Shown piece by piece: positions 2,561-22,263 of a stretch of 22,292 nt of DNA. The DNA comes from a virus. Numbering within the stretch: the stretch's first letter is position 1; each line of letters starts with the position of its first letter. Where the stretch lies: positions 1 to 22,292 of the IMG/VR virus record IMGVR_UViG_3300032265_001580; one strand, written 5' to 3'. The notes beneath the pieces are model-generated. The model was not told the DNA's origin. It made no database searches and was given only the letters and a program-made list of their open reading frames with translations. Made by a program: the position numbers and the translations under genes.

Positions 2561-2598
2561 TTATTCTACCCCTTAACTTTATATATTTAGTTTAACCA

Positions 2599-3690: not shown

Positions 3691-5816
3691 TATACAATTA
3701 CTCCAGTAAAGATAATATAGTTGATAGTTTGGTAGGGATTCATTGTATTAACTGGAACATTTAAGTTGCCACCTTGTGCATCAACTCCGCCGCTGTTGGG
3801 CAAATATTGTGCTGTATTAGCCGCAGTTGGTCCAAGATTTAGATTTGAAACTGTTTCTGCATCAGCAACGTCTGAAACTGTACTAGGACGTATAGCATAA
3901 TATTGATTCCCTTTGAGTCCAGTATCCTGATTAGTACCTTTAAGATCATGTTTGTGATCTGGAAGATTTTGCGTGTCTAATGTTACTTGTGAATTTCCAC
4001 TTCCAGCACCAACATTATCGGCACTGATGTCAGTTACTCTGTCTGCCGGAGTAGTAATTGTTGTGATCGGACTACCGTCGATTACACTACTAACAGTTGT
4101 TCCATTGTCCATATTATCGGGACCTAACGGGAATCTGCCTCTCAAATCTGGTAAAGCAAAAGTTGATTGCCCTTGTAGTAATCCCAATGCTTTATAAGTG
4201 TAACCTATAATCTTAAATAGATCTGGGAAGTTTGTTATCAATTGCTCGCTACCGTCGCAGAGTAAGTAACCAGAAGGTATTTGAACATTTGGATTATTAG
4301 CAGGATCTCCTGCCCAAGGAAATATTGCACCAATCGGTACTGTTGGAATATTAGATATAAAACTCTGTTTGGTTGTTTTTCTTAAACCAACACCGGGTCT
4401 GCTAATGATTAATACATCGGTAATATTTGAATCACTTACTAGTGTTTTAGTATCGATAAAGTCAGAGGACAATGTAGTTACAAACTGAGCTGTGCTACCT
4501 GTGCCGTTTACACTGATTGCCGGGCTTGTTATATCTCCTGCAAGACTAAACGATACCGGAGTAGCCCATCTACTTGCACTTCCAGAAATAGATCCTGTGA
4601 TTGTACTGTTAGAAGTTATGTTACCGTTAAAAGTTCCATAAAAATTATTAGCATATATATTATTAAATTTCTTAGTCGCTGAACCAATATCGTATACGCT
4701 GTCAGTACTAGGTAATAGGGCGGCACCGGTTGTTGGAGTTCCGTTGTTATTCCAATTTAAATAAAGTTGTCCGTTAACCGTAACATCGTCTCCTAATGTA
4801 CTAGTTCCGTTTACAGACAAATTAGTTCCTGCAGATATTGAAGTACCTGCGACAATACTAGTTGTAGATACAATATTACCAATAACGTCTAATACTGCAA
4901 CGGGACTTGCATTATTAACGCCTACTTTTGCACCAACAATGCTTAACGGGCTTAACACATTACCGCTTGAATCTCTAACACGTATAAAAACATTGTTGTT
5001 AGTAGTATCTGTATTTGATATAACTGTTGATCCGTTTTCTTGTTTCAGTTCAGTAACACTAGAACCAAGACCAATTGCTAATCCTCGAGAATTTTGAATT
5101 GTTATTTTATTATTGGTAATACTGTCTGCATCACCTCTAAGGAAGTTTCCTGCAGGAACAGTAGTTCCGTTAACAATTAATGCGCTGGCTTTTTCCGCTG
5201 TTCCCCACATGCCCATTGCAGGATTAATGTTTAATCCTATCTTTAATGATGAAGTTTCAAATCCTCTAATTGCAATTTTAGGAGTAAACGCTTCTGTTGC
5301 AATAATAGCAACACTAAGACCAGCAACTAAAAAATTAATTATAACATGATTAATATTTGTAGCATCTGCAATTGTTTGTACTAATGGGCCGCTGTCTGCA
5401 CCTGAACTAAATTGAGGTCCAACTAACACCCATGCACTTCCAGAATACAAATAAAGTTGTTGATGGACACTATCAATCCATAGATCGCCGGTAAAAGACG
5501 ATGTTGGTTTTGTAGAATCTTTTCTCACACTGCCGGCAGCTTGCCAACTACCTGCTGTATCTGTTCCGTCAACATTTATTTTTAACTGATTAACGCTGGT
5601 ATCATACCAAAGCTGTCCTTGTGTAGGATGGGCAGGTCTAGTTGAATTAGCAAAGTTTTCTAATAGATGTAAAAAATTTGTGTTAACCGCAGAACCGTAG
5701 CCCGGAGCATTTTTTCCAATAAAAGCCAAACTAGTTTGATCTGTTACTAGTGTATTATCCGGAATAGGAATTCCATTTGAACTAGGAGTAGATGTATGAA
5801 ATATATTATATGTCAT
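3690..5816 (-). CDS. Tail fibre protein with shared anchor and phage tail-collar domain
   Basis: This 708-aa protein is the longest and first-transcribed of three paralogous fibres. Domains in order: anchor 1-136 (AFIGKNAPGYG, LLENFAN, GQLWYDTS at 67, GDLWIDSV at 110, LVGPQF); a backbone with WGTAEKASAL, NKITIQNSRGLAIG, VRDSSGNVLSP and NNASPVAVLDVIGN; a Ser/Thr/Asn-rich stretch with IGSATKKFNNIYANNFYG near 378-395; a tail-collar domain at about 491-575 (VPIGAIFPWAG, IPSGYLLCDGS, FALPDLRGRFPLG); NLPDHKHD at about 616; and the end NPYQTINYIIFTGVIV. The collar plus DHKH plus NPYQTINYI series is that of the phage tail-collar (microcystin-dependent-protein-like) family found at fibre tips, as in short tail fibres. 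It is therefore a candidate receptor-binding or irreversible-attachment fibre. Its ATG shares one base with the stop of the 200-aa gene. Confidence 0.9.
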   Translation of the reverse strand: MTYNIFHTSTPSSNGIPIPDNTLVTDQTSLAFIGKNAPGYGSAVNTNFLHLLENFANSTRPAHPTQGQLWYDTSVNQLKINVDGTDTAGSWQAAGSVRKDSTKPTSSFTGDLWIDSVHQQLYLYSGSAWVLVGPQFSSGADSGPLVQTIADATNINHVIINFLVAGLSVAIIATEAFTPKIAIRGFETSSLKIGLNINPAMGMWGTAEKASALIVNGTTVPAGNFLRGDADSITNNKITIQNSRGLAIGLGSSVTELKQENGSTVISNTDTTNNNVFIRVRDSSGNVLSPLSIVGAKVGVNNASPVAVLDVIGNIVSTTSIVAGTSISAGTNLSVNGTSTLGDDVTVNGQLYLNWNNNGTPTTGAALLPSTDSVYDIGSATKKFNNIYANNFYGTFNGNITSNSTITGSISGSASRWATPVSFSLAGDITSPAISVNGTGSTAQFVTTLSSDFIDTKTLVSDSNITDVLIISRPGVGLRKTTKQSFISNIPTVPIGAIFPWAGDPANNPNVQIPSGYLLCDGSEQLITNFPDLFKIIGYTYKALGLLQGQSTFALPDLRGRFPLGPDNMDNGTTVSSVIDGSPITTITTPADRVTDISADNVGAGSGNSQVTLDTQNLPDHKHDLKGTNQDTGLKGNQYYAIRPSTVSDVADAETVSNLNLGPTAANTAQYLPNSGGVDAQGGNLNVPVNTMNPYQTINYIIFTGVIV
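4092..4346 (-). other. Phage tail-collar domain
   Basis: Residues about 491-575 of the 708-aa fibre. Diagnostic segments are GYLLCDGS, FPDLFKIIGYTY and FALPDLRGRFPLG, followed outside the core by a DHKHD histidine motif and a terminal NPYQTINYI. This order is characteristic of the PF07484 family. Confidence 0.9.
5409..5816 (-). repeat. Fibre anchor copy 1 (protein-level repeat)
   Basis: Residues 1-136 of the 708-aa protein. It is slightly longer than copies 2 and 3 because of extra residues between the two LW motifs (NVDGTDTAGSWQ). The same IGKN, YG, N-x-NF, LLENFAN, GQLWYD and GDLWID landmarks occur in the same order. Confidence 0.85.
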
Positions 5817-6438: not shown

Positions 6439-6446
6439 TATTTATC
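6439..6446 (-). promoter_or_regulatory. T4-like late promoter candidate (GATAAATA)
   Basis: Read on the minus strand, GATAAATA matches the T4 late consensus TATAAATA at 7 of 8 positions and overlaps the stop codon of the giant gene. The start codon of the 200-aa gene follows 20 nt later. A transcript starting about 6 nt after the box would carry a leader of roughly 14 nt that contains the GAGAG ribosome site. AT-rich DNA makes chance matches likely. Confidence 0.35.
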
Positions 6447-9400
6447 GTGGCGCAATAGTAGCATTTTTCTTTATAAAATTAGCTATTGTGTTGTTAGAAT
6501 CTTCTAGTTTTATACCTTCACCGTCTTCCCAATATGTCATATTATTTTTTACGATGACAATTTTAGTGTTAACTAGTGGCACAGCAACCAAGTGTATTGT
6601 ATTTCCTACAACAGTAAATTCTGGAGGATATGTTGTATCTCCAAGTGGGCTGTAAGGATAACCGTTACTTTCTACAAAAACTGTAGAAGAAGTTTTCTTC
6701 AAACGATATCCCCCAACAAACACATCAATATCATCTGATCTACTAAACTTTAACTTAGGAGTAAACGAAGATACTGTTCCATCTGCTAGAATAGTTTCTG
6801 TTTCAATTTGATCTGTGTAAGGGATAGTTTCTGTTGGGCCTGCATCTTGAACAATTGATCCTGCAAGATGCACTGCCGGAGCACCTGTGCCTAATGTGCC
6901 GCGTCTTAGTTGTGAAAGAACGTTGTCTATTTTTACAAAAAATTCAATACGCTCACCGTTGATGAAAACTATCCCGGGTAAGTTTGCGGCAGGATTTGGC
7001 GGTGTAAGTATACTACCATCTGCTACTGCAATAGATAATGTGTTTTGTGTTATATCAGCTGCCAGCGTAGTTGCTTTTGCGGCATTTAGTCGTTTATAGT
7101 GTACTCGATTAAGCATGTCTTTAAACTGCATAAATCCAAAATCAGGATTAGATCCTTCGGTTCGTGTATAGACTTTAATAGCTAAAGAATCAATAACTTG
7201 TCCGGGGACTACTTCTTCAGGAGCATGACTGTTCATTGGAGATATCAATTTATCCCCATCAACTACAATATCATCAGGAGCATAACCCACAGCAGTACTT
7301 AATGCAGATCCTCTAAACATGCCGCCATTCAGTTGAGTATCGTATGTGTCAGGATTAGGTTCTACGCTGCCGTCGGGATCTATTTCAGACGTACTGCTGT
7401 CCCATGCATCAGAATCCCAACCTAAGTCTAAATCCCATCCGCCATGGATTGTAAAATCAAGACCCATAATATTAACACCGCCGTAGTCAACACCAGTCAT
7501 TAGCTGTGAGAAGTCTTTGCCCGTGTCTCCAACAGTAGGTTTGTAGTTATATTGAATTCTATCGGCTGCATTATAGTGAACAAAATCTTTTAGATATTTT
7601 ACAGAAATATTTTGTGTTATTCCATCAACAGGTGCAGGTGGTGCTGTTGTAAATGTTATAACTCCGTAATATTCTGTTGTATTATTGATTGTTTTAGATC
7701 TAATAGAGAACACATATTCGTTTCGTAAAACATCAACGCCATTTACTGTAACTGTTTGATATTTTGAAAACGGTATTTGCGGAGCCCATTTTAATGCAAA
7801 CTGTAATTTAGATCCAGTGCCTTTAAATGTCTCAGTTACTGTATTATCAGTAATGAAATTTGATTTAGCTATCCTGTCAAATTTAACAGCAATTTTATTT
7901 GTCCTAACAGTTTTGCTTTCAATGATAGCAGATGCTCTAGCGGCAGCGCCGCCTAAATTTAAACCGCCATCTAATTGAATTACAGGGGCTTCTAAATAAC
8001 CTGAGCCGCTGGCAATTAATTCTATTCTGTTAACTATACCGATAGATATGTAGGCACGAGCTTCAGCTCCAGATCCATATCCCCCAATAATTTTTACTAC
8101 TGGTGGAGAAATATATCCAGAGCCACCATTGACTATTTTAATTGATGTGATGGTAAATCCTGCATTGTCATACCACATTTTCCAAGGATATTGTGTAATA
8201 TCTTTAGAATCATACACGATTTCACCGTTTTCAACCTTAACTGAAATAGGTACTATATTTGAATTTTCATCAATGACCGGCAATAGATCAAAGTCTGATA
8301 CTATTGATTTAGCATAGTCTGTAGCTGTATAGGAACTTACGTACTCTCTAATACTTGTTCTATAAGGCTTAACTTCGTCAATATAGTTTTCAAAGTTACT
8401 TAGATTGTTAGGCTGATAAGTTGCTGGTTGATTTAGAGTTCCTACATTATGTCTTGCTTTGACAAAACTTGTTTTAAACGCCCAGTCAACAAATGACTGT
8501 TCGTAGAAAACATAACGTAAACTACCAAAGAAAAATTTTAAGTAATTTGGTTTTAATTCATTAATTAATAACTTATTTTTAATAGTTGTTAAAATTATTT
8601 GCAATTCAATTCCGGCCGCATCATCATAAAATGCACCGTCATATAACTGATCGCTAAATCCTAATGTAGCAGAACCATTGTCGTATAGATTACTTAAAAA
8701 TTCAATAGTACCGGCTTGTCTGCCAATTACTGTATAATTTTGTGTGTAATCAATAGTTGTAATATTATTATATTTTTCTAATAAAATCCAACCGCCTGTG
8801 CCAATATTTTTAACTTTAACAATATTTCCAATATTAGCATCAAGCGTTGCCAAGTAATAGGTATTGTCTACAATATAGTCTATTTTTGTAAATTGATTGT
8901 ATCCAACTGCATACCAATCTATATATTGCCAAAATTGTGTAACATCATAACTTTGTACTCGTACACGGTCCCAACGAGGAGTCGAGTCCCATGGTGTACT
9001 TTCACCATTATTCCATTGTAAGATTGCCCATTTATTGTAAGAAGCACTATCGCTAGTAACTAATACACTATATGGTCTTACTACAAAAGAAGTAGTAGAT
9101 TGTTCATAATTTGTACCGCTATTAATAATAACTACACTGTCAATACCGCCTGTGCTGTTCAATGTTGTTTTAATTAATGCATCTTCTCCGCTTCCAATAA
9201 CTGTTATATAAGGAGCATTAACATATCCTTTGCCAGGATTAACTATAGTGGCTCCAATAATTTGGCCGGCTAATAATCCTGTGCTAGCAACTATCGGAGT
9301 TATTTTTGCGTGTGTTAATCTTGTTGTTCCTACAAATTGTAATTCTACTTCAGATGTAATTGAAATATCCCATTTGCCAGTAGCGGCTCCTGGGGCAGTT

Positions 9401-12400
9401 TCGGCTTTAGTTAGATCTGTTAAATCATAATTATCTGAGACAAGCACTGATGATAATGTACTATTAACATCTGTAATAAACTGTTTTAGTGCTTCAAAAC
9501 GATTGACAAACATGCTCTGTCTTGGTCTAGACAAAATGCCGTACCGTTGTTTCAAAGGCAATGATAAGTCCGGTAACTGCTGTCCATTTGCATCTTTACC
9601 GGCTAAACTTTCAAACCATTTAGATTCAATTGATGACGGTAGATCAGTATTAGGATCTTCACTAACTATCTTCCATTCTGTATGTAAATTTTGTTCTTTG
9701 TTATCAATGTTCCAATAATCAATATGTAGCACAACATCGGCTGATTTTAAATATTGCTTGCAGTTTACTAGGCTGAAACTATTAGAACCTGTTAATACTA
9801 AACAACTATATCCATAACTAGTTGGGTCAGAAATAAGGCTTGCTACTTCAGCTGCCGATAAAGTTCTACCTAAAATGTTAGGCGTAATAGTTTTATTTTT
9901 TACCCAGAAATAGTAAGTGGTAATTAATGATTTAGTAACTGTGTCAAATCGTTGACTAGTGCTGTAAACTGACTTACCGTATAAACTCTTTCCGCTAATA
10001 CCGGCAGCTAATCCTGCTTCAGTATCTGCTCGAGCATCCCACTGGTCCGGAGTTAGTCTCGACGATACCCATTCGTATACATCAATACTAGCAGAGTACT
10101 GCGGGTAATTCATCGGATCAGGAGCGTATAATTTATTCCAATTAGTGCTTCTATACACTATATCACCATCTAAGTTTTCAACAAACTTAGCACGGGTTAG
10201 ATTCCACCAAAGTGTACCAACCTTGTCAGACAACCAATTAGATTCAGGATTTAAATTTATCGATGAGACGGTTTTATCAGTATACGAATATACTGCTGGA
10301 TCATAATATGTTTTATATTTTATTTCTTGATCAGCTATGCCCGGAATACGGCCATACGGAGCATCTACCACGTCAATATATGTTATTAATTGATTGCTTC
10401 TCTTATTGTATAAGAAAGCCTTTTTAATTTTGCTAACATCTGGTGCAGGAACTTGTTGATGTAATACTGACCAAGATTTATTAGAATTTTGTTTAGTATA
10501 TGTATAGGCAACACCGTATCCACTATTTGGTGCACCAGCTATTACTGTATTTTTACCAGCAGATATCGATATACCATAATTTATACCTTCTGGATATTGT
10601 TCGTCTGGTGAAACACCACTAAAACTTTCAGCATATATAAATTTTGTATTATATCTATCAAATATATCAACTCTACCAGATCTTACTAACTTATCAATAA
10701 AGGTTAGAGAGTTATTATCAAAAGTAGTAGCAACACTATCAAAGGTAGTTATATTGTTTATACTACCTTTTGCAGATAACACAATTAACGATTCTGCATC
10801 TCCAATGAATTCAACATAGGATCCAAATAATTCATTCTGTTCGTCTTTAGGACTAGTTAGAATTTGTAGTGGAATGTAATTATAAGCAGTATCTGTTGCT
10901 GTAAATATTTGTACTTTACCTTCAGCAAAATTATCTAAATTAGCCAACGGCGATCCGACTGCTAGGTAACTGCCGTCGGCAGATACTGCTACAGATTCTC
11001 CAAATCTATCACCAGGATTAATTGTTGTAATTTGCTGTCCGCCCATTACTTCAATAGGCGATCCATAACCTGTGTCTGTTTTATGATATACAAAAATTTC
11101 ACCAGTATTAGCATCATACTCGCTTGCCATTAGTCTCCAATCGCCGGATGGAGGAGTAGTGTTAGTTTGCACAAGTGCTTGGTAATACGATCCTAAATAT
11201 CTTACATATTCGTCTACATTATAAGTAGTGCCCGGAACAAAATCACCAGTCTTTGTTGCAAAACTATACTGGTCCGATCCAGGTGCTCCAACAACTATTC
11301 TGCCGCCATCAGCAGTTGCAGTTATAGAATAACCAAACTGTGAATATGTTGCTGTTCCTACTAAAGGCGGTTCTGTATGTGCCCAAGCTGTACCGTCATT
11401 AGATGAAAATATGTCAACTCGACCTTGCGAATTATGGTATGCAGGACTTGAGATGATTAATAAGTAACCATCAATTTCATTTTGGCTAAATGCTATTTTA
11501 GCTCCGAACAGATCCCCAGAGCTTATTCCGGCAGGCACTGGTACTACATTTTGAACATTAAATCCAATATAACCAATTGATAATACTTTTACTGTGTTAG
11601 TAGTAGCATTAGAGTATACAACAAGTTTACCATCAGGACTAAATTTTATATCTCCAGCAGTAATAGCAAATAATGTTGTTGAAAAATTCTGCCAGGTATT
11701 ATTAAAATTCTTGGAATATAAATTTATTTTTTCATAGTCTGCAATTGCAATTGTATTGCCGTCTGGACTAGTAGCAACTAATTTAGCAAACTTTTGAGTT
11801 GTAAACATCGGGTCAATAGCTAATTCAGCGTAAACCGGATTATGCTGATAAACGGTCCATTTTCCTGATCCGTTATCATCTGCCCAAATTAATTCGTTGG
11901 GTTTTAAATTAGGAGGTAAAACATCGTTAATGTTATCAACATTATTAACCCTGCTCTTTAAAAATCTATAACTGAGAATACTAGTTAGGTCATTCTTTAA
12001 AAAATCTGTGTGAGTAAAACCAGTTATTTTAGCTGTTATAGTAATAGTTGCATTAAGTACAGAAGCTATTTGATAAAAACCATTTAACGATGTAGTATGT
12101 GTTATTCCAATAATATTGCCAGCTTGTACTGTGGGAGTCCTATCACACGATAAAGTCAATGTTGTTCCGCTGTAGTTTGCATCTGTTATTTTAAAAGTAT
12201 TTTTTGTAAATCTATAAACACTCCATGACAGCGCATCAAACGGACACCAAATGTAATCTCCGTCTGTAAATTTATTAATGTCATGAGTTATGACATCTGT
12301 TAAAGAATTAAGACTGTATTTTACATCATCATATCTAGCATAACCGGGTGTTCTTAGATAAGGTTTTTTAGTAGTTAATGGCCAAGGATTATTATTGTAA

Positions 12401-15400
12401 TCAGCAGGTTTAACATATACATTAGACGGCGTTTGTCTATAGACAAAGTCTAATAAATTTTGATCAACAGTATTAACTAATTCAAAAGATTGCGGATTAA
12501 TTTTAAATTGATTTATATCTAAAATAAATTCTAGTTCAGTAAATGTATCAACAGATCCGTACTCACCAACACGCAATGCCCACTCTTCATTGAATGTTAG
12601 GCTTTCCATATTATCTGCACTGAGTACATCAAATAATTTGTTCAATACATTTTGTGTACCTTTTTCAATTATCATCCCTTGATAAAATTTATATTGGCTA
12701 ACATCATCTTGAATAATATTAGCAAGGTACTGTCGAGACTGATACCCAATTAAATGTTGCGCAAACTCTTGCTGTTGTACGTCAAAATTTCCGCTATCTA
12801 AATTATAAAAATCAGTAAACTGTTGTACTTTATAATCCCAATTAGGTAACAATTCTGCTGTAGGTTGCTTTGTTAGTTTAATCCATTGTGCATCATTAAA
12901 GGAAGCCAGACTTGATAACTTCATCGATGCTGAATAATAAAACGATTTGTATTTTACAATGTCACCTAAGTTATAATCAGTATGCGGAGCCCAATCAACA
13001 ATCTTTGCCTGATCAAAAATAAATCCAGGAATATTAAATCCGCCATTCCAGTTTTGTGTTATATAACCTAAAACTTTTACACGTTCTTGTCGATAACCGG
13101 GTTCAAGATTATAGATAACATCGTTAAACATTGTTCTGTTATCTAACAACAATGTATGCTCTTTTTGTATCAAATAGAGTACTGCACCATAAATTCCATG
13201 ATTGGTATTTTTTGATGTTAATATAAAATCATTGTCACTTCTGTATATACTGGTTAACTCGGTGGCTAGGGCTTGGCCGTCAACTCTAAATATTTGGTAT
13301 CCGTAGAATTGATCGGTAATATCATTTACCGTTGCATAAGTTGTTGTTAGTGTTAATTGTCCGGCTGCCGGGCTCAAACTTAATACAGATCCAGATGTCC
13401 ATCCTTGTACTGTCCAGAAAACAAATTCTTTTGCTGAACTTTCCCAATTGCTAACCGTACTTAAATTATTATTAAAAGTATCAAATACAAATCCCTGTGC
13501 GGCAAGATATGCCCCATACCCTAAAAGAAAATCAACTACTGCTTGTATTGAATCTAATTGTGTTCCGTAGCTTAATACTTGTTCTTGAGTTGTATCAAAA
13601 GACTCTCTAATATAAACGTCGTGGCCTCCAATAGTTGGTAAAGCACCGAGCTGAATAAAATTTAAACTGTTAAAAGTTGTTGTACTTGTGTGGCTAGTAA
13701 TTACTCTATAGTAAAACGATCCGTATCGAACTACAGTTCCTACGAGATAATATTGATTTTCGTTCCATGTTACATAAGATTCACTAATACCCCCAACATT
13801 AGATATGTTTCCGGGAGTAGTCCAAGAATAGTATTTAAAGTAAGGGTGTTGTCTTACATAACCAGAAATTTCAAAATTGCCGTCGGACACTTTTGTAATC
13901 ATGATACCGCTATAGACTAACTTTTGTACTGGGCTACTAGTGTTTAAAAATATATTATAATTTTCTTGAGGAACAAATATTCCAGTAGTGGATGATGGAT
14001 TTTTGCTGTCTAGTAATAAATTAAATTTTGGCTTACTAGTAAATCCGCCTAATTTTGATCCTAAGCTATTTGTTAAATTTTGAACATCGGATACGTATTG
14101 ATCTATAGAGGCGGTTGTTTCGCCTAACATATGATCTACTAGATAATTTACTAAGCCTGATGTAAAAATTCTAGTTGAGCTAAATGTAGTACTAGGTAAT
14201 ACAATATCAGATAATTTAAATCTTAAATTTGTTTCAGAATAAACAAATTGATTTGCTAAATTTTTTACAATTCTACTTCGATCAAAACAAGTACCTAGTA
14301 CTTTATTTGGCTGCAATAATAATACTGTTTGCATTAATGCAAAAGGATAGAATGAAGATTTTCTCCATGCGGTTTCTACAGGACCGTAATCTCCAAATGC
14401 ATAAGATCCGCCTGCTACAGAACTAACTAGACCGTTGACAAAATTTGCAGTAAGTGGATTTGTTAAATTTCCAGATTCGTCTACAGGTAATCCCGTATCT
14501 AAAATTGATCTTACAAATTTTAAATTTTGTTTTACTGTAGTACCTGGTTCTCTAATAATACCGTTACGTAGATCTTCCCATAATAATAAATTATTATTAG
14601 TATATGGAGCAGGTCCATATACCGATGTCCACCATACTGGTTCTATACTAAAACCTAATATTTCCCAGGGATGGGTGTGTGGTCTGTCTGTATCTAAATA
14701 CCAATTAAAAATACCCCTCCAATATGCCGGCACTGGATTGCCGTCGGGACTATAATTTCCAGAGTAATTAAATGTAAACGGATCTGTAGAATTGTATCCT
14801 AGTTGTTTAGTGTAATCTTGAGATATTAGTGATGTCCATTGATAAAAGAATGTAGATAATACTTGATCGAATTCTTTTTTTGAATAATCCGTTGTTCTTT
14901 CATATCCAGGAATAAAATCATAAATGTTAAACACTTCTGGATTGTACGACACCTTAATATTGTTAAAAATTCTTTTTTCTAATTCTAATATTAAATCATC
15001 TCTAAAATCATCAAAGGCAACTATAATACTACCGTCGTGTCCTTGAATTACTTTTGTTGGTGTTCTATAAGTATTATCAATAAAAATCTTAGGTTCAAAT
15101 TTAGGATACAGTCCTAATTTTGTAGGTGTTGGCGGGCAGAAACTACCGTCTGTTGAATGATACTCGTATGCTTCAATGGTGTCACCAACTGTTAAACTTG
15201 TTAGTATCTCAAAGAATACATCAGTGCCAAACACATAATCTTTTCCGTGAACTAGTTGTACTCCATTAAGATATAGTGTTACTGACTGATTACTTAGATT
15301 GGTAAGATTAAATGCATCTGTTAAAGGGTATTTGGTAATACGATTATCTAATACAGTATATTCAAGTCTTACTGCACCGTTATATCCAAACATATCAGAC

Positions 15401-18345
15401 AAATAGTAGGGATATGTTTTAGGATATCCGGCTAGCATTTTGTTTAAAATAAAATCAACATGCTGTCTAGGACTAGTATCTATACCAGAATTATCGGCAG
15501 CAATTAAAAATGCTCTTTTAAATTTTGAATAATCAGTATTTGCTGTTTCAATTGCTTTAAAGATATTTGCTGTTTGACTTCCTAAATGGTACAAACTTAA
15601 ATTTACTGGGCCACTATGTTGTACAAAACGTGTGCCATATGATGTTATATTTCCCAAGTCTCTTAAATTTCCAACTCCGGGATAGGCTCCTGAAAAATTA
15701 GAAATATTTTCTACTATAGAATCAACATGGTTAATAACTTCTCCCAATGTAAAATCTACTAAATTACTATTCAAAGGATTATTTTGTAGATTAACAGGTA
15801 TCTCATAATACCCATTGTTATTTTTAGCAGTTGCACTGAAAGTTTTTAATGTAACAACATCAGTCAATTCAACTGCTGTCGATAATTGTACAACTTTTTT
15901 TGCAGGTAATGTTACGATAGTAAAAAATTTAGGATCTAATCGTTTTCCGTTAATGTAAACACGCACTACTAAATCAGTTATAGAATTAATATTGTTATAA
16001 ACATCAATTGGAAAATTATTGACTAGCCCGCTGTTTTTAAAAATTCTAACTACCGGTTGAATGTTTTTTACTAAAGAAGTACTCCATCCGTTGGTGTACT
16101 TAAACAATGTAAGATTATTAATTAATTTTAAAAATCCAATATCTGTTTTTTTAGTTTCAACCATTGTATTAATTTTATAATTGAAACTGTCATTTAACAA
16201 ATTAAAGGTAAAAGAAATATCTCCAATATTGTTAATATTTTGATAGGATAATGCAAAACCTAATTCTGTATCAATAAGAGAAGATGTGCTGGGCTTATAA
16301 GAAAATACTTGGGTACCCTCAAAATTTGTTCCAGTATATGCCGAAGTATCACCGTAGCTCACGCCATACTCATCAAACACATCAAACATTGGACTTTGAT
16401 TTGCCTTAGTTTTAATCTGTCCTAATTTCCAATTAGTGCCATTAAACCAGTACATTAATCCTCGATTAGCTGTTCCTTGTCTAACTAATACAGTTTCATA
16501 TAGCTGTGCTTCGGCATCAGTTTCTTCTGTGAGATTAATCTGTTTTAAACTGCCTGCATAATTTGCAAATTGATGTGTTCCAGAGCTAACACTTAATATA
16601 TTAACTAGGTTAGTCAATCCTTTATCATAGTATAACTTAATTTTAGAATTATCAATAACACTAACATAGTAAGTTTTTCTATTTAATAACCCTGCAACAT
16701 CTAAATTAGTATTGCTTAGATATGTTAATTGATCTCCAGTATTAAATCCGTGAGTATCATTATAAGTAATTCCGGTAACTGTATTAAGGCCCGTAGCAAA
16801 ATTAATTATGTTGTTGTCTACATCAACTTTAGATGCATCAAAATTAGATACTTTAGATGGATGTATAACTGTTACAAAATTAATTTTATAAATTTTATTT
16901 TTTACACGGCTGTCTGTATCAGCAGTAAACAATATACGCATGCCTTCGGCGAGCGATACTCCATCTACAATATAACCTAAACTGCCTTCAACATTACTAA
17001 AGACATCTTTGGTATATGTGTCAACAAGATCAACGTCTTTTTTAGCTTGATAGCCAAAATTATACAATTTTAAACCAGAACTAAATTCAATAATTGGTCT
17101 AGTAGCTCTATTATTCTGATCTAAGTCCGCTCCAGATGCAGTTACTACATCTTCGTGGAACCATCGATTATATCGAGACCAAGGATTTCTATCAGGACTA
17201 GATCTATTAACTGTTATATAATCTTTAGTTTTAGCTGCCGATGATTGAGCACTAAACGATTCTTGATCAAACGGAGTATCATCAAACAAGGTAACTGTTT
17301 CTATACTATAGCTAGCAAGGACTTCTAAATCAGTTTCCGGTATTAATTTAATAGCAGTACCAACTCCTTCGACATACCAATATCCAGTCGAGTATGTGTT
17401 AGGAGAAATATTCCCTACAAACTCCAATTTCATACCATTAGACAATGATGTTCCATTACTTAATTTGTAAGATTTTTTACCTACAATGTCAGATTCAACA
17501 TTTAAAAATGTATCTTGATCAATATCTTTAATTTTAAGAAGTCCGCCGATATTAGCGTCAGCTTCACTTAGATAATATAATACACTAGGTGCAGTATGCG
17601 GAACTGTAAAAACTAGTTCACCTTCAACAATGCTGTTGTTTGTTATACCATCATTGACATATCTATTAAGATTGTCTTGTGTTCTTTCTGTTTTGATACT
17701 AAAAATGTTAGACGGGCTGTCGATGATGAATCTATACGTCTGTCCTCTATAAAGAGTTAGTGTAGGATTTATTGTAAGTCCGTCAGGCGTAAACACATAT
17801 GCATATGATCCACCCTGGTCTTCTAATTTAACTGTATATGTACTGTCAACTGCTAGTTGCTGGCCCGAAACTGTGATAGGATTTGGTCCAAATGGTAGCC
17901 AGTAATAGTGTTGGAAATTTACAAACTTGTCCCAATCAATATGGGGGTCCCAAGAATATAATTCTTGTCGATTTAATCTTTCGTGATTGTTGGTTATTCC
18001 GCCAAAAATATCTATATGATTAATGTGGTCAACATAATCTTTATAGAAGTTAACATTTCCAATATAGTCTTTAATTACTGCCGCAGGTTCTAACTGATAA
18101 TTTTGTCTGTCAGAATTGGCTGCTTTTAAAAATACATCGTTACCATTTACTGATTTTGCATTCTGTCTACCAATATATCCGCTAACCTTTTTAACAGTAC
18201 CGGGTTGAGTTAATTGTGTCAATGTTGAATGAATGAATTTTTTATTGCTATCTGTACGATAAAACGTAGGCAATAATGTTTCTGTAATCCTAGTATTTGC
18301 ACTAGGTATAGGTAATCCGTATTCGTTTTGATTTTCAGTAGCCAT
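6442..18345 (-). CDS. Giant multidomain baseplate/tail structural protein, 3967 aa (gp7 position)
   Basis: This single uninterrupted frame takes up more than half the window. Its ATG shares a base with the gp6 stop (TAATG), with GGA about 9 nt upstream. Blocks in order by residue: 127-156 Trp/His-rich (WDPHIDW, YYWLPFGPNP); 167-275 degenerate cupredoxin-like; 374-400 (DRNPWSRYNRWFH); 625-718 (FDVFDEYG, FSYKP); 1219-1299 (THPWEILGF, YGPAPYT); aromatic modules near 1545, 1803 and 2387; FG-GAP-like propeller 2179-2633; 2706-2740 (VGTLWWNLT, DVYEWVSS); RYGILSRPRQSMFV near 2940; GSGY repeats near 3033-3080 and 3403-3475; EVKPYRTSIREYVSSY near 3320; and a C-terminal block 3745-3848 (FINGERIEF, RRGTLGTG). 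Several blocks match, from memory, large tail proteins of pelagiphages and metagenomic T4-like phages. T4 gp7 (wedge initiator, 1032 aa) lies after gp6, so an enlarged outer-wedge protein is the likely role. No hydrolase motif, signal peptide or membrane segment was seen. Confidence 0.85.
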   Translation of the reverse strand: MATENQNEYGLPIPSANTRITETLLPTFYRTDSNKKFIHSTLTQLTQPGTVKKVSGYIGRQNAKSVNGNDVFLKAANSDRQNYQLEPAAVIKDYIGNVNFYKDYVDHINHIDIFGGITNNHERLNRQELYSWDPHIDWDKFVNFQHYYWLPFGPNPITVSGQQLAVDSTYTVKLEDQGGSYAYVFTPDGLTINPTLTLYRGQTYRFIIDSPSNIFSIKTERTQDNLNRYVNDGITNNSIVEGELVFTVPHTAPSVLYYLSEADANIGGLLKIKDIDQDTFLNVESDIVGKKSYKLSNGTSLSNGMKLEFVGNISPNTYSTGYWYVEGVGTAIKLIPETDLEVLASYSIETVTLFDDTPFDQESFSAQSSAAKTKDYITVNRSSPDRNPWSRYNRWFHEDVVTASGADLDQNNRATRPIIEFSSGLKLYNFGYQAKKDVDLVDTYTKDVFSNVEGSLGYIVDGVSLAEGMRILFTADTDSRVKNKIYKINFVTVIHPSKVSNFDASKVDVDNNIINFATGLNTVTGITYNDTHGFNTGDQLTYLSNTNLDVAGLLNRKTYYVSVIDNSKIKLYYDKGLTNLVNILSVSSGTHQFANYAGSLKQINLTEETDAEAQLYETVLVRQGTANRGLMYWFNGTNWKLGQIKTKANQSPMFDVFDEYGVSYGDTSAYTGTNFEGTQVFSYKPSTSSLIDTELGFALSYQNINNIGDISFTFNLLNDSFNYKINTMVETKKTDIGFLKLINNLTLFKYTNGWSTSLVKNIQPVVRIFKNSGLVNNFPIDVYNNINSITDLVVRVYINGKRLDPKFFTIVTLPAKKVVQLSTAVELTDVVTLKTFSATAKNNNGYYEIPVNLQNNPLNSNLVDFTLGEVINHVDSIVENISNFSGAYPGVGNLRDLGNITSYGTRFVQHSGPVNLSLYHLGSQTANIFKAIETANTDYSKFKRAFLIAADNSGIDTSPRQHVDFILNKMLAGYPKTYPYYLSDMFGYNGAVRLEYTVLDNRITKYPLTDAFNLTNLSNQSVTLYLNGVQLVHGKDYVFGTDVFFEILTSLTVGDTIEAYEYHSTDGSFCPPTPTKLGLYPKFEPKIFIDNTYRTPTKVIQGHDGSIIVAFDDFRDDLILELEKRIFNNIKVSYNPEVFNIYDFIPGYERTTDYSKKEFDQVLSTFFYQWTSLISQDYTKQLGYNSTDPFTFNYSGNYSPDGNPVPAYWRGIFNWYLDTDRPHTHPWEILGFSIEPVWWTSVYGPAPYTNNNLLLWEDLRNGIIREPGTTVKQNLKFVRSILDTGLPVDESGNLTNPLTANFVNGLVSSVAGGSYAFGDYGPVETAWRKSSFYPFALMQTVLLLQPNKVLGTCFDRSRIVKNLANQFVYSETNLRFKLSDIVLPSTTFSSTRIFTSGLVNYLVDHMLGETTASIDQYVSDVQNLTNSLGSKLGGFTSKPKFNLLLDSKNPSSTTGIFVPQENYNIFLNTSSPVQKLVYSGIMITKVSDGNFEISGYVRQHPYFKYYSWTTPGNISNVGGISESYVTWNENQYYLVGTVVRYGSFYYRVITSHTSTTTFNSLNFIQLGALPTIGGHDVYIRESFDTTQEQVLSYGTQLDSIQAVVDFLLGYGAYLAAQGFVFDTFNNNLSTVSNWESSAKEFVFWTVQGWTSGSVLSLSPAAGQLTLTTTYATVNDITDQFYGYQIFRVDGQALATELTSIYRSDNDFILTSKNTNHGIYGAVLYLIQKEHTLLLDNRTMFNDVIYNLEPGYRQERVKVLGYITQNWNGGFNIPGFIFDQAKIVDWAPHTDYNLGDIVKYKSFYYSASMKLSSLASFNDAQWIKLTKQPTAELLPNWDYKVQQFTDFYNLDSGNFDVQQQEFAQHLIGYQSRQYLANIIQDDVSQYKFYQGMIIEKGTQNVLNKLFDVLSADNMESLTFNEEWALRVGEYGSVDTFTELEFILDINQFKINPQSFELVNTVDQNLLDFVYRQTPSNVYVKPADYNNNPWPLTTKKPYLRTPGYARYDDVKYSLNSLTDVITHDINKFTDGDYIWCPFDALSWSVYRFTKNTFKITDANYSGTTLTLSCDRTPTVQAGNIIGITHTTSLNGFYQIASVLNATITITAKITGFTHTDFLKNDLTSILSYRFLKSRVNNVDNINDVLPPNLKPNELIWADDNGSGKWTVYQHNPVYAELAIDPMFTTQKFAKLVATSPDGNTIAIADYEKINLYSKNFNNTWQNFSTTLFAITAGDIKFSPDGKLVVYSNATTNTVKVLSIGYIGFNVQNVVPVPAGISSGDLFGAKIAFSQNEIDGYLLIISSPAYHNSQGRVDIFSSNDGTAWAHTEPPLVGTATYSQFGYSITATADGGRIVVGAPGSDQYSFATKTGDFVPGTTYNVDEYVRYLGSYYQALVQTNTTPPSGDWRLMASEYDANTGEIFVYHKTDTGYGSPIEVMGGQQITTINPGDRFGESVAVSADGSYLAVGSPLANLDNFAEGKVQIFTATDTAYNYIPLQILTSPKDEQNELFGSYVEFIGDAESLIVLSAKGSINNITTFDSVATTFDNNSLTFIDKLVRSGRVDIFDRYNTKFIYAESFSGVSPDEQYPEGINYGISISAGKNTVIAGAPNSGYGVAYTYTKQNSNKSWSVLHQQVPAPDVSKIKKAFLYNKRSNQLITYIDVVDAPYGRIPGIADQEIKYKTYYDPAVYSYTDKTVSSINLNPESNWLSDKVGTLWWNLTRAKFVENLDGDIVYRSTNWNKLYAPDPMNYPQYSASIDVYEWVSSRLTPDQWDARADTEAGLAAGISGKSLYGKSVYSTSQRFDTVTKSLITTYYFWVKNKTITPNILGRTLSAAEVASLISDPTSYGYSCLVLTGSNSFSLVNCKQYLKSADVVLHIDYWNIDNKEQNLHTEWKIVSEDPNTDLPSSIESKWFESLAGKDANGQQLPDLSLPLKQRYGILSRPRQSMFVNRFEALKQFITDVNSTLSSVLVSDNYDLTDLTKAETAPGAATGKWDISITSEVELQFVGTTRLTHAKITPIVASTGLLAGQIIGATIVNPGKGYVNAPYITVIGSGEDALIKTTLNSTGGIDSVVIINSGTNYEQSTTSFVVRPYSVLVTSDSASYNKWAILQWNNGESTPWDSTPRWDRVRVQSYDVTQFWQYIDWYAVGYNQFTKIDYIVDNTYYLATLDANIGNIVKVKNIGTGGWILLEKYNNITTIDYTQNYTVIGRQAGTIEFLSNLYDNGSATLGFSDQLYDGAFYDDAAGIELQIILTTIKNKLLINELKPNYLKFFFGSLRYVFYEQSFVDWAFKTSFVKARHNVGTLNQPATYQPNNLSNFENYIDEVKPYRTSIREYVSSYTATDYAKSIVSDFDLLPVIDENSNIVPISVKVENGEIVYDSKDITQYPWKMWYDNAGFTITSIKIVNGGSGYISPPVVKIIGGYGSGAEARAYISIGIVNRIELIASGSGYLEAPVIQLDGGLNLGGAAARASAIIESKTVRTNKIAVKFDRIAKSNFITDNTVTETFKGTGSKLQFALKWAPQIPFSKYQTVTVNGVDVLRNEYVFSIRSKTINNTTEYYGVITFTTAPPAPVDGITQNISVKYLKDFVHYNAADRIQYNYKPTVGDTGKDFSQLMTGVDYGGVNIMGLDFTIHGGWDLDLGWDSDAWDSSTSEIDPDGSVEPNPDTYDTQLNGGMFRGSALSTAVGYAPDDIVVDGDKLISPMNSHAPEEVVPGQVIDSLAIKVYTRTEGSNPDFGFMQFKDMLNRVHYKRLNAAKATTLAADITQNTLSIAVADGSILTPPNPAANLPGIVFINGERIEFFVKIDNVLSQLRRGTLGTGAPAVHLAGSIVQDAGPTETIPYTDQIETETILADGTVSSFTPKLKFSRSDDIDVFVGGYRLKKTSSTVFVESNGYPYSPLGDTTYPPEFTVVGNTIHLVAVPLVNTKIVIVKNNMTYWEDGEGIKLEDSNNTIANFIKKNATIAPR
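7921..8139 (-). repeat. GSGY-type beta repeats in the giant protein
   Basis: Residues about 3403-3475 contain two units of the form GGSGYxxPPVVKIxGG..GSGAEARA followed by IxLIASGSGYLEAPVIQLxGG. A more divergent unit lies at about 9106-9249 (NPGKGYVNAPYITVIGSG, residues 3036-3053). Such units are common in phage virion proteins and form beta-helical or beta-sandwich spacers; the structural role here is inferred. Confidence 0.6.
10447..11811 (-). other. Seven-bladed FG-GAP-like beta-propeller in the giant protein
   Basis: Residues about 2179-2633 divide into seven units. Core motifs are: 1 LVATSPDGNTIAIA; 2 IKFSPDGKLVVYS; 3 LFGAKIAFS, ISSPAYH, GRVDIFSS; 4 FGYSITATADGGRIVVGAPG, GEIFVYHK; 5 FGESVAVSADGSYLAVGSP, GKVQIFTA; 6 LFGSYVEFIGDAESLIV, GRVDIFDR; 7 YGISISAGKNTVIAGAPNSG, YTYTK. 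FG near the start, GAP/GSP/SSP in the middle and a G-x-V-x-I-F strand at the end are the integrin-type FG-GAP signature. Blades 1 and 2 lack the FG and GAP and look more like generic SPDG blades. Blade 4 holds an inserted aromatic module. Confidence 0.7.
11128..11244 (-). other. Chitin-binding-like aromatic module 3, inserted in propeller blade 4
   Basis: Residues about 2368-2406: PGTTYNVDEYVRYLGSYYQA, a run of Thr/Pro, then DWRLM with Trp 2403. The pattern Y-x(3)-(D/E)-x-V-x-Y-x-G-x-Y-Y-x-A ... W resembles small CBM5/12-type (ChtBD3) carbohydrate-binding modules. It falls between the GAPGSD and GEIFVYHK strands of blade 4. Confidence 0.6.
12874..13002 (-). other. Chitin-binding-like aromatic module 2 in the giant protein
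   Basis: Residues about 1782-1824: Trp 1785, YNLGDIVKYKSFYYSA, then Trp 1821 in QWIKL. It has the classic W...Y-x-x-G-D-x-V-x-Y-x-x-x-x-Y-x-A...W spacing of CBM5/12-like modules and is the best conserved of the three copies. Confidence 0.65.
13648..13776 (-). other. Chitin-binding-like aromatic module 1 in the giant protein
   Basis: Residues about 1524-1566: Trp 1527, YYLVGTVVRYGSFYYRVI, then FNSLNFIQL. It has the same layout as modules 2 and 3, but the second Trp is replaced by Phe, so ligand binding is less certain. Confidence 0.55.
17521..17847 (-). other. Cupredoxin-like domain lacking copper ligands
   Basis: Residues about 167-275 of the giant protein: NPTLTLYRGQTYRFIID, then NIFSIKTER, then a VNDGITNNSIVEGELVF strand, FTVPHTAPSVLYY and LSEADANIGG. 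This strand order and the TLYRGQTY and APxxLYY landmarks look like a cupredoxin fold. The usual His, Cys and Met ligand positions read Phe/Ser, Leu-Ser and Ile here, so a metal site is not expected. A structural role is inferred. Confidence 0.5.
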
Positions 18346-21300
18346 TAATAATTTCCGCTAGTAATGTTTTGACTATTAAGATTGGATGACAGTGCCGATA
18401 TCGATCCTGCACTTTGTAACTGGCTTGCCGTAACTGCGGATATAATTTCTATATCGTTAATTGAAGCACCGTTAATAAAAATTTGATCATTTTCACACGG
18501 TATTTCAAATAGGCTACCAAAAGTTAAGTCACCTTCTTTTGGCACAATTAAGAAATTAACAATGTTAGGTGTTAATGCGTTCATTACATAAGTTAACAAT
18601 TCACTAAAGTAAAAGCTGTCGCCAAAATCAAAATTATCTAAAGCAAAAAATTGATTAATTGCGGCTAGTACTCGAGTTTTTACATCATTATCGCTGATAA
18701 CAATATGTGTATTTTTTACTATTTTAAAAGTTGCTTGCACATCTGTTGTTGCAGAACTACCAAATAGTATTTTATATTTTACAGGATGATATACAATTTC
18801 GTCGCTGATTGGTTTAATTAAATTTAAATTAGGTGCTAGAACATTGTACAAATAATCAGTACTTGGGGGTAATGGTTCTGAGCTCAACGATCCTTGTAGC
18901 CATTGGCGGTAACTGATATCATATTGTGTGGTTAGTACATAGATGTCAATAATATTTGTTTTTCCTGGATCAATACGTGCTTCGTAGCTAGCATTGTGAA
19001 TATATTGAAATTTAATATTTCTACGTCCGGGAAACACTCTGTAATCTTGTGTTATTACTAGTGTTGATGCAGATACTAGTTTTTGAACTGTATTACTGTC
19101 AATAAAATAAAAATATTGTCCTACTGATCCAGAATATCCACTTTGTGTAGGGTATATCCTTACAGTATTATTGCTGTTATCAAATAAACGATAGTCTTCT
19201 TTGCCAGTATCAATTGTGTATTTTTCTAACACAACATATTTTGTAGTATCTGTTGTAGACGGTGCTACCAATTCTTCAAATAATGTTGGGTCGTCTACAA
19301 TTCCATCATCGTTTGTGTCGCTAAAGGTGACTTCAATTTTTTTAGTATCAGTATATCCGTCAATGCCTTTGTAACTATCTGTAATTTCCCACTTATGGTC
19401 GTAAGTAAAGGGCAACACTGAATTAGGTTGAGTATTAATTCCAAGCACTTTAATATTATCTTTTACAACTGTGTTAGTTGTTATATCATAAATTTTGTGT
19501 GATGCATCAAAATAAAATCTAATTTGTTTATCACTTTCAAATATATAACGAACTAATCTACTTTTTACGGTATAGAATTCTGTATCAGTTGTAAACAACA
19601 GTAACCAACTTGAATCAAGTTGTTGGCTTGAATTGTTTCCTGCATTTGTTAGGCTAAATTTGTCTTTAATGTTTAAATTAACTTCAAAAACAATTTTCCA
19701 GATAGCATTTTGGCTGTCGTAACGTAGTCCGAACGACTTATTCGAATAGATTAAGTCGACCAGTGTACTGATAGTATTAGTAGTTAAACTAGTATCCCAT
19801 GCAGGAATAATACCGCTTAGGATAGAATTACTAGGAACTATAGTGTTTAACAATACTGGTATTGTAATTGATGTTGATGGGATACCATTTCCATTAACTG
19901 TTACTACTTGTGCCCATAAAGTTGTTGCGGCTCCTGTAGGTAAAGATCCGCTAATAGGTGTTAGGGTATTTTGATTATTAATATCAAAGTAATAACCGGT
20001 CGGTGCTGTAAACTGTAGCAGACTATTAGCTACAATATATGATAGATCGCCTGTTACACTGCTAGTACCAACTGCTACATCAATACCGCTAACAGAAAAA
20101 TTACCTATTGATTGATTAGTATCACTACTGATATTGGTCCAAATTTTAGGATCAGGGCTAGTAGGGACAGTTTTTCTAAATTTAGAATAATAATAGTCCC
20201 TTAATTGTTTAGATTGTAAAGCATTTATTACTCGATTATAGATAACAGCTTCAATATCTGTTTGCGTTAAGTAATTAAATCTGAAAGTATCCGTATATTC
20301 TTGTCGATATAAGGCACCGTCGTCGGCAAATAAATTAGTTTTACTGTATTTGCCAGTTGGATCTACTAGATCAAAATATCTACTAATACCGCTTGAACTG
20401 CGATTGACTGCTTTAATTTTAACAATATCTTGGTTCACAGACAAAGGCGCTATATTATAATCTTCAGCCGTGATCATACGGTTTTGTGTATAATAGTTTG
20501 CAGGAGCATTTGTTTTAATATTAGTATTTGTTTCTGTTGAACTACTGTTAGCTACAGAAGAAACTAAATTTAACCCAATTGTTAGTGTTTCAATTTGTCC
20601 TACATTCGATGCATAAGGTATTTGTATTGTGACATTACGGATATCTGCAGGATTAATAGTGTAGCTGATACCATTGCTAGTTCTATAGTAAACTCTAAAC
20701 GTGCCTAGCGGAAGATTTCCAAAGACGCCGTCACTAAATGCAAGACTAATTCGATCGTTTGATCTAGTTGTTACTGCATAAATGTTTCTTATTGACTTAC
20801 TTAGGCTGTTATAAATGATATTATTGCCCTTGGTGTTAGACACCTGTGACCAATATTCATTTTCTAATCCGTTTTGATCTAATCTATATAACCAAATATC
20901 ACTATTGTTAACATTAATAGCATCTAAGTCAACTATTTCGTTGCTAGCAGGTTGGGCAACTGTAAATGTTCCTTGACTCAATGTGCCTTGTTTAAAATGT
21001 AGGAAGAATCCTGTATTAGCACTGCCATTACCACGACCATCATTTCTATGAATGAATGATAATCTATTTCCAATTAGCGGAGGTTCTTCTTTAATAACAA
21101 GATTATCAGTGTCTAAAATTGTTGATACTATTTCAAATGCCATGTTACGACCATCTACCGATTTGGTAAATTCATATACAGGAACTCCTGTATTGGCAGC
21201 TTGAAGCCTGTACTGATCTGTTGGGATACTGTCAATTACTGCACTAGCATCAGGATTGCCAAACTGTCTAGTTGCTGGGATTGCCGCGTTAATAACTTTA

Positions 21301-21770
21301 ATAAATTGATCGTACCAGCTGGAATTAGCACTGTCGTTCCACCCGATAACCTGATTGGCTAAATTTCTTCCGTTACTATCTAAAATAGTTTGTGTAGTTT
21401 GTACAGAAGAAAACTTTAATAATCCAGATGCTGGAATATTTCTAGATACAGGATAGCTCAATAGTTTAGCAAAACGTAATACACTTTCTCGACGTTCTGC
21501 AAGCTCTAAAAAGTTGTCTCGAGCATTAAGATCTGCACGGAAAGCAATACTTTGACCTAAAAATGCAATGATATCAATTAACGCTAGGTATTCTGAAGAC
21601 TCAATATAATCGTTAAAATCTTCAGGATAATTTTCTCTAATGTACTGAATCATAACCCTGCGTAAATTCTCAAAGTCATAACTTTGAAAATCAGCATTGG
21701 CGAAGGTTTGATATATTCTTTTCCAGTCTTGTGCGACTAATAATCTATTTTGTCTATCTGTAGATGACAT
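18345..21770 (-). CDS. 6: Baseplate wedge protein, gp6-like
   Basis: This 1141-aa homologue of T4 gp6 joins wedges into the inner ring of the baseplate. The N-terminal signature at residues 33-98 is clear: FENLRRVMIQYIRENYPEDF, IESSEYLALIDIIAFLGQ, FRADLNARDNFLELAERRES. Residues about 431-487 (ITAEDYNIAPLS, VNRSSSGISRYFDLVDPTGK) and the C-terminal part at about 980-1117 (DEIVYHPVKYKILFG, FKIVKN, LLTYVMNALTPNI) fit the long gp6 form of cyanophages and related phages. T4 gp6 is 660 aa, so about 480 residues are extra. Part of this is a central beta region (about 590-660) and part an EF-hand-like loop near 818-827 (DTNDDGIVDD). The ATG has GGGAA about 6 nt upstream, 49 nt after the gp25 stop, and sits against an inverted repeat. 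The stop overlaps the giant gene's ATG by one base. Assignment is by recognition of family motifs. Confidence 0.92.
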   Translation of the reverse strand: MSSTDRQNRLLVAQDWKRIYQTFANADFQSYDFENLRRVMIQYIRENYPEDFNDYIESSEYLALIDIIAFLGQSIAFRADLNARDNFLELAERRESVLRFAKLLSYPVSRNIPASGLLKFSSVQTTQTILDSNGRNLANQVIGWNDSANSSWYDQFIKVINAAIPATRQFGNPDASAVIDSIPTDQYRLQAANTGVPVYEFTKSVDGRNMAFEIVSTILDTDNLVIKEEPPLIGNRLSFIHRNDGRGNGSANTGFFLHFKQGTLSQGTFTVAQPASNEIVDLDAINVNNSDIWLYRLDQNGLENEYWSQVSNTKGNNIIYNSLSKSIRNIYAVTTRSNDRISLAFSDGVFGNLPLGTFRVYYRTSNGISYTINPADIRNVTIQIPYASNVGQIETLTIGLNLVSSVANSSSTETNTNIKTNAPANYYTQNRMITAEDYNIAPLSVNQDIVKIKAVNRSSSGISRYFDLVDPTGKYSKTNLFADDGALYRQEYTDTFRFNYLTQTDIEAVIYNRVINALQSKQLRDYYYSKFRKTVPTSPDPKIWTNISSDTNQSIGNFSVSGIDVAVGTSSVTGDLSYIVANSLLQFTAPTGYYFDINNQNTLTPISGSLPTGAATTLWAQVVTVNGNGIPSTSITIPVLLNTIVPSNSILSGIIPAWDTSLTTNTISTLVDLIYSNKSFGLRYDSQNAIWKIVFEVNLNIKDKFSLTNAGNNSSQQLDSSWLLLFTTDTEFYTVKSRLVRYIFESDKQIRFYFDASHKIYDITTNTVVKDNIKVLGINTQPNSVLPFTYDHKWEITDSYKGIDGYTDTKKIEVTFSDTNDDGIVDDPTLFEELVAPSTTDTTKYVVLEKYTIDTGKEDYRLFDNSNNTVRIYPTQSGYSGSVGQYFYFIDSNTVQKLVSASTLVITQDYRVFPGRRNIKFQYIHNASYEARIDPGKTNIIDIYVLTTQYDISYRQWLQGSLSSEPLPPSTDYLYNVLAPNLNLIKPISDEIVYHPVKYKILFGSSATTDVQATFKIVKNTHIVISDNDVKTRVLAAINQFFALDNFDFGDSFYFSELLTYVMNALTPNIVNFLIVPKEGDLTFGSLFEIPCENDQIFINGASINDIEIISAVTASQLQSAGSISALSSNLNSQNITSGNY

Positions 21771-21819: not shown

Positions 21820-22263
21820 TTAATTTGTCAAACCATTATTCTGATCAAATGTCAGTTGCATAGATTCTTGTATGTAATATGGCAAGTAAACCAATGTGCA
21901 GGCTATTTGTAAACCGCTTTCATATTGTGTTACAATCACTTGTTTGGCTCTAACACGAGGATCGTAGTTAATGATTTCTTCAACATTTTGTTGTATTAAT
22001 ACTTTTAATTGCTCTGTTAGAGGTTCGTAAAGCACATCCCATATGATTGTACCAAAAGTGGGATTCATTAAACGCTCGCCCTGACGAACATTAAAATGAT
22101 TTAATATATCTTGCTTGATTAAAGCGTAATCATATAGTGCAAATTTTTGTGTATCAGGACTTATTGTACTAAAACCTTTATAGGTCTTAGAGCCGGGAGC
22201 ATCCTTGTAGGTTAACTTACTAGGAATAGTAATTTTATCGTATAATTTAGGTGCTGTAGACAT
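21820..22263 (-). CDS. 25: Baseplate wedge protein, gp25-like
   Basis: This 147-aa protein belongs to the GPW/gp25 family, a small wedge component that contacts the sheath end and gp6 in contractile-tail baseplates. The family signature is NVRQGERLMNPTFGTIIWDV at residues 58-77, followed by LYEPL and then the helix LKVLIQQNVEEIINYDPRV at 86-104. The length is normal for the family. The name 'lysozyme-like' attached to this family reflects fold history; no lytic role is expected. The ATG lies 8 nt after a possible upstream stop. The ribosome site is weak: only AGG about 13 nt upstream, with AT-rich sequence directly before the ATG. It may depend on coupling with the gene before it. Its position just before gp6 fits a baseplate operon. 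Confidence 0.93.
   Translation of the reverse strand: MSTAPKLYDKITIPSKLTYKDAPGSKTYKGFSTISPDTQKFALYDYALIKQDILNHFNVRQGERLMNPTFGTIIWDVLYEPLTEQLKVLIQQNVEEIINYDPRVRAKQVIVTQYESGLQIACTLVYLPYYIQESMQLTFDQNNGLTN

Follow-up and report, generated by a model that had tools for sequence, protein, structure and literature searches.

The window analysed here is a 22,292-nt fragment of the virus record IMGVR_UViG_3300032265_001580, and its genes, with all features described below, lie on the minus strand. A single open reading frame (6442..18345) encodes a giant virion structural protein of 3,967 amino acids (P0001), hereafter the giant, which matches phrog_10938 with 1014 bits, a family carrying the label 'virion structural protein'. 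Upstream is the gene of a gp6-like baseplate wedge protein (18345..21770; phrog_10646 with 931 bits, and phrog_219), preceded in turn by that of a gp25-like baseplate wedge protein (21820..22263; phrog_261 and phrog_43). On the downstream side the giant is followed by a 200-aa protein and then by four tail-type ORFs, and three putative fibre genes are found here. Three consecutive fibre-like ORFs at positions 1013-5816 of the window (1013-2560, 2599-3690 and 3690-5816) begin with a common domain some 90 residues long (phrog_15511/14394); a tail collar domain is present in one of them, and in another a Peptidase_G2 self-cleaving chaperone domain that scores below threshold.

A matching gene order is found in Pseudomonas phage vB_Pa-PAC2, where a wedge protein, the giant, a protein of about 200 aa and tail-pin proteins follow one another. 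In T4 the genes are ordered 6-7-8-9-10, with gp7 and gp8 in the place after gp6. The order gp25-gp6-giant-tail pin or fibre genes, as expected of a wedge protein of the T4 gp7/gp8 type, is present in both the window and PAC2. Homology of the giant to T4 gp7 or gp8 was considered and rejected, as hhalign probabilities were below 1% and no PDB match to either protein was obtained. The first-pass annotation had spoken of a baseplate protein; its location directly downstream of the gp25-like and gp6-like genes bears this out, but similarity to T4 gp7/gp8 was not found, and the term is therefore a reading of gene order, by which the giant probably sits in the baseplate. At 25-30% identity, residues 1-2,099 of the giant match 96 cultured phages, the majority of them jumbo phages, and the source phage of the window is probably a jumbo phage as well. 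A second variable insertion is located at residues 501-600 and is present in about one quarter of the relatives (mean occupancy 0.26).

The feature under study is a seven-bladed propeller domain within the giant. The region 10447-11811 (residues 2179-2633), to which it had been assigned, is the right one, but the conserved flanks place the domain itself at residues 2160-2631 (10453..11868). It belongs to Pfam FG-GAP_2 (PF14312; E 2.2e-9, 37.8 bits with a cut-off of 23), matched also by 39 of 41 homologous IMG/VR segments at E <= 0.01, and not to the classical FG-GAP family PF01839 named earlier, which shows no match in the window propeller and a weak one in 3 of the 41 homologues. In the window protein, Pfam by itself scores no more than about two blades above noise, a single-sequence phmmer search of the propeller region against the PDB gave nothing useful, and no match was found in NCBIfam. 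A profile of the 41 segments, searched against the PDB by sequence only, identified integrin alpha-4 (3.9e-13), alpha-L (2.7e-11) and alpha-6 (1.4e-9); since integrins are found by the sequence profile alone, the propeller match is not due to chance. An AlphaFold2 model built on the homologue alignment (pLDDT 88.9, pTM 0.90) contains seven four-stranded sheets according to DSSP, although in the third sheet the outer strand, d3, is weakly defined. The best solved structures in a fold search with this model are integrin heads (E 4e-15, whole-chain TM-scores of only about 0.4-0.5); among viral matches, FG-GAP proteins from large eukaryotic viruses come first (TM 0.68). The ring is predicted to be closed, given the number of sheets, the pTM and the fold matches to closed propellers. 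The observation first made is confirmed, and the domain is read as a complete FG-GAP_2 (integrin-type) seven-bladed propeller.

In the model, N-terminal strands at residues 2164-2177 (11815..11856; WTVYQHNPVYAELA) form one side of the insertion slot, as compared with the two relatives L137 and L063 described below. Blade 1 (residues 2189-2225, 11671..11781, from DSSP of the model) and blade 2 (2233-2268, 11542..11649) are of a degenerate SPDG type, and the b-c loop of blade 2 bears CBM5/12-like modules in relatives. Blades 3 to 7 show the FG or YG, GAP-like and G-x-V-x-I-F motifs as originally described: blade 3 (2284-2329, 11359..11496) reads FG, ISSP and GRVDIF; blade 4 (2340-2435, 11041..11328) reads FG, VVGAP, an insert and GEIFVY; blade 5 (2451-2496, 10858..10995) reads FG, AVGSP and GKVQIF; blade 6 (2507-2575, 10621..10827) reads FG, IVLSA, a b-c loop of 33 residues and GRVDIF; and blade 7 (2593-2630, 10456..10569) reads YG, IAGAP and GVAYTY with a WSVLHQ end. 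An analogy with calcium-binding propellers had also been drawn. It is not backed, because the window propeller contains no DxDxDG-type motif and no more than 5 of 102 slots have such a motif, and a calcium-binding reading of the window propeller was rejected.

The aromatic segment in blade 4 is a CBM5/12-like module (residues 2367-2412, 11110..11247; E 2e-8 with our own profile) within an insert of about 2362-2414. It lies between two strands of the blade, as the first reading held, and more precisely in the b-c loop, which measures 61 residues in the window versus 2-22 in homologues without the insert. Surveyed across homologues, the long insert is absent from 79 of 97 aligned propellers, and blade 4 is retained in all of these. 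AlphaFold2 models the insert as a confident three-stranded piece. The notion that the repeat is a chance or degenerate pattern, or that the aromatic segment forms a regular strand of the blade itself, could draw on the missing FG-GAP motifs of blades 1 and 2 and on the two blades seen by Pfam alone, but it is refuted by the integrin profile match (about 4e-13), the high-confidence seven-sheet model and the homologues that keep blade 4 without the insert, and may be regarded as extremely improbable.

The family profile of the CBM5/12-like modules matches the PDB entries 9rkv (4.2e-9), 8fqc (1.0e-8) and 1ed7, the chitin-binding domain of ChiA1 (9.4e-7), whereas the insert segment alone reaches 17.9 bits with Pfam CBM_5_12, under the cut-off of 26.2; the whole giant exceeds this cut-off. 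The tryptophan in the AGWEPS stretch of ChiA1 is the exposed chitin-binding aromatic. In the window insert this stretch aligns to NTTPP and the tryptophan is absent, so that of the earlier description 'sugar-binding-like' the fold family holds and the chitin-binding residue does not. NTTPP is part of a longer stretch, NTTPPSGDW, that resembles the PPG motifs of gp124 from phage Milano. Two further modules are located outside the propeller, one at residues 1526-1575 (13621..13770; best stretch for Pfam CBM_5_12, own profile E 2.1e-13) and one at 1784-1835 (12841..12996; own profile E 1.2e-14), and both carry phenylalanine at the position of the ChiA1 tryptophan.

Within a clade of uncultured phages nearly every giant carries the propeller. 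A FastTree phylogeny was constructed from the flanks alone for 89 uncultured and six cultured giants. The 89 uncultured giants form the one clade in which the propeller occurs and the six cultured giants, which lack it, fall outside, their exact order being unsure on account of long outgroup branches. In an independent set of 60 relatives drawn by the upstream flank only, and therefore blind to the propeller, all 60 possess it. Some contigs that encode propeller-bearing giants reach 372 and 400 kb, and the lineage thus includes jumbo phages. Two relatives nested within the clade are without a propeller: L137 (9935-9997) has a 21-residue linker in its place between conserved flanks, and L063 (9830-10018) has a 63-residue slot holding a lone CBM5/12-like module, recognised by eye, between two W-x-V strands. 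In the six cultured jumbo-phage homologues the slot holds other sequence or almost nothing. Pfam found nothing significant in the slot contents of the cultured relatives, L137 and L063. The slot of Salicola phage SCTP-2 (L069, 14833-16155) contains some 300 residues of unrelated sequence that look by eye like a jelly-roll lectin or LamG-like domain and have no Pfam match. With the propeller as query, tblastn over 50,697 cultured phages gave no match beyond a weak one of 120 residues in Microcystis phages. Viral contigs searched with a Pseudomonas-type anchor yielded no relatives, which leaves the gap that separates the propeller clade from the cultured outgroups unsampled. No other 500-residue stretch of the giant is as poorly conserved as the propeller, which has a mean pairwise identity of 0.30 versus 0.47, 0.46 and 0.43 in the other parts.

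The positions of the modules follow a common pattern among relatives. In 97 propellers, the window included, 69 CBM5/12-like modules were located at d1-a2 (1), b2-c2 (35), d3-a4 (15) and b4-c4 (18). In the independent set of 60 propellers, 38 of 39 modules lie in b-c or d-a loops, b1-c1 included, and 34 of the 60 propellers contain no CBM5/12-like module. Taken together, 107 of 108 modules are found in b-c or d-a loops, distributed over five different loops. As these two loop classes lie on the same face of a four-stranded antiparallel blade, nearly all modules decorate one face. A relative with three modules (L005), at b2-c2, d3-a4 and b4-c4, was modelled with AlphaFold2 (pLDDT 85.8, pTM 0.86; seven four-stranded blades) and served as the reference. 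On this reference at least 175 loops of 40 or more residues occur on the module-bearing face and 2 on the opposite face; the sequences are related, so neither loop nor module counts are independent. When the window serves as reference, inserts at blade 3/4 move to the other face because its strand d3 is weak, and with that loop omitted the count of 112 versus 2 still favours the module-bearing face. Placement of the CBM5/12-like inserts of blade 3/4 in a c3-d3 loop, as the window reference suggests, was rejected, as the L005 model puts them after d3. For non-CBM modules at blade 3/4, for example that of L014, the side of d3 and hence the face is ambiguous. The slots of L014 and L062 also contain a second recurrent beta module (VGM.VSG.GI...T.V..V), found around blades 2 and 3 in many relatives. 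Mapped on the tree with missed detections allowed for, the modules require a minimum of 20 changes at b2-c2, 8 at d3-a4 and 6 at b4-c4, the first of which may be inflated by undetected modules.

These patterns may be accounted for by a modular display or adhesion platform, in which one outward face of the propeller carries exchangeable modules that touch the host; we give this reading a probability of roughly one half. A lineage of large tailed phages would have acquired the propeller once, at a fixed slot within a giant protein of the tail or baseplate region, and the ring would be tethered to the giant through both its ends. The face formed by the b-c and d-a loops would point outward, and swappable modules, mostly CBM5/12-like, would be grafted on it and contact the host envelope. 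This would constitute an adhesion step apart from the tail fibres, probably directed at host surface glycans or proteins. Fold family, single slot, insert positions, gain and loss pattern and faster divergence were computed here, and a host-recognition role is plausible, with indirect support from the rapid divergence and from the restriction of modules to one face. Fast divergence of the propeller also fits relaxed constraint, and the window insert without the chitin-binding tryptophan, the many propellers without a CBM5/12-like module and the docking use of such modules in phage Milano count against the platform.

The strongest rival is a docking scaffold, in which propeller and modules would be protein sockets for fibres, tailspikes or wedge proteins and would vary together with the fibres rather than with a receptor. 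Its precedent is phage Milano, in which CBM5/12-like modules dock the tailspike onto the baseplate: the matched domains of gp124 (8fqc) belong to an N-terminal tail-binding module, whose PPG motifs touch baseplate wedge proteins (PMC10811340). The closest solved relatives of the modules here, 9rkv and 8fqc, are phage tail proteins; the NTTPPSGDW stretch of the window insert is PPG-like, the insert is without the chitin-binding tryptophan, and three putative fibre genes follow the giant. The modules are gained and lost, however, while the remainder of the giant persists, and the complete absence of the propeller from two relatives rules out an essential socket. Docking is a serious but somewhat unlikely explanation. 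Less likely still is a structural filler or spacer, by which the propeller would stiffen or widen the tail tip with no specific partner and would tolerate inserts because the face is solvent-exposed. Loops on one free face would indeed gather inserts under weak constraint, and the domain is both the least conserved part of the giant and lost twice, but its retention in all 60 relatives sampled without regard to it, and the repeated use of one module family rather than random sequence, speak against a filler.

In tailed phages, fibres and spikes are where one usually looks for host recognition. Should the propeller be an adhesin, an uncultured lineage of large phages would possess a second site of recognition, modular in build, within the largest of its tail proteins. 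With slot and five grafting loops fixed, the site would be easy to read from sequence, and it would offer a clean natural case of domain grafting onto one propeller face. Ready test pairs are found among the natural variants, some of which have modules at different loops, some no modules, and two no propeller. If docking is correct instead, CBM5/12-like modules would be general tail sockets and their annotation as carbohydrate-binding would mislead.

Among the papers searched, none joined FG-GAP, baseplate and phage. Propellers have been described at phage baseplates and are precedents for the platform. The gp131C protein of phiKZ is a seven-bladed propeller at the baseplate periphery (PMC4901313), and the profile search of the PDB gave no match to it (4GBF) with E values of up to 1. 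It differs in being part of a separate protein (gp131) rather than of a slot in a giant, and CBM5/12 inserts are not reported there. The receptor-binding protein Gp45 of S. aureus phage phi11 is a five-bladed propeller involved in host recognition at the baseplate, with a modelled cavity of the size of GlcNAc (PMC4901313); it is a homotrimer and a separate protein, with no grafting of modules. Compared with the ChiA1 domain (1ed7) and Milano gp124 (8fqc), the window module has the pattern Y..GD.V.Y...Y.A ... W in common, but it lies inside a propeller loop and not in a chain of domains, and the AGWEPS tryptophan of ChiA1 is absent.

FG-GAP_2 repeats are also present in two cultured rhizobial jumbo phages, Phosso (XYS97266/67, XYS97288/89) and Atu_ph07 (AUZ95081), but in separate genes, and their giant homologues have no propeller in the slot. 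Where the window phage has its propeller, the giant slot of both phages is occupied by repeats. The Agrobacterium phage Atu_ph07 gene annotated 'Streptococcal hemagglutinin' (L233, 243018-244199) encodes an FG-GAP_2 propeller protein with a fold match to the window model. The genome of Sinorhizobium phage Phosso (L232, PV764938.1) contains 42 FG-GAP_2 matches, most of them in two adjacent hypothetical proteins of about 3,160 and 3,690 aa (48338-68978) far from the baseplate genes, and smaller FG-GAP proteins are encoded at 92124-94532.

A close likeness is to the integrin alpha heads (alpha-4, alpha-5, alpha-L, alpha-V), which likewise consist of seven blades of four strands each and show FG and GAP motifs. 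In integrins, the face to which the 2-3 and 4-1 loops belong holds the ligand contacts and the alpha-I domain, and this is the loop class that bears the phage modules here. Unlike the integrin heads, the window propeller has no DxDxDG calcium sites and two degenerate blades, and it lies within a tail protein with no beta-subunit partner, at TM-scores of about 0.4-0.5. The propeller may tentatively be viewed as a phage counterpart of the integrin head, a chassis in the tail on which modules, sugar-binding-like ones included, would be swapped on one face and alter what the phage grips while the fibres are unchanged, an interpretation that falls somewhat short of even odds. Integrin-type propeller, CBM5/12-like module and phage tail are each of known kinds, and the most interesting aspect is the one-face grafting across relatives.
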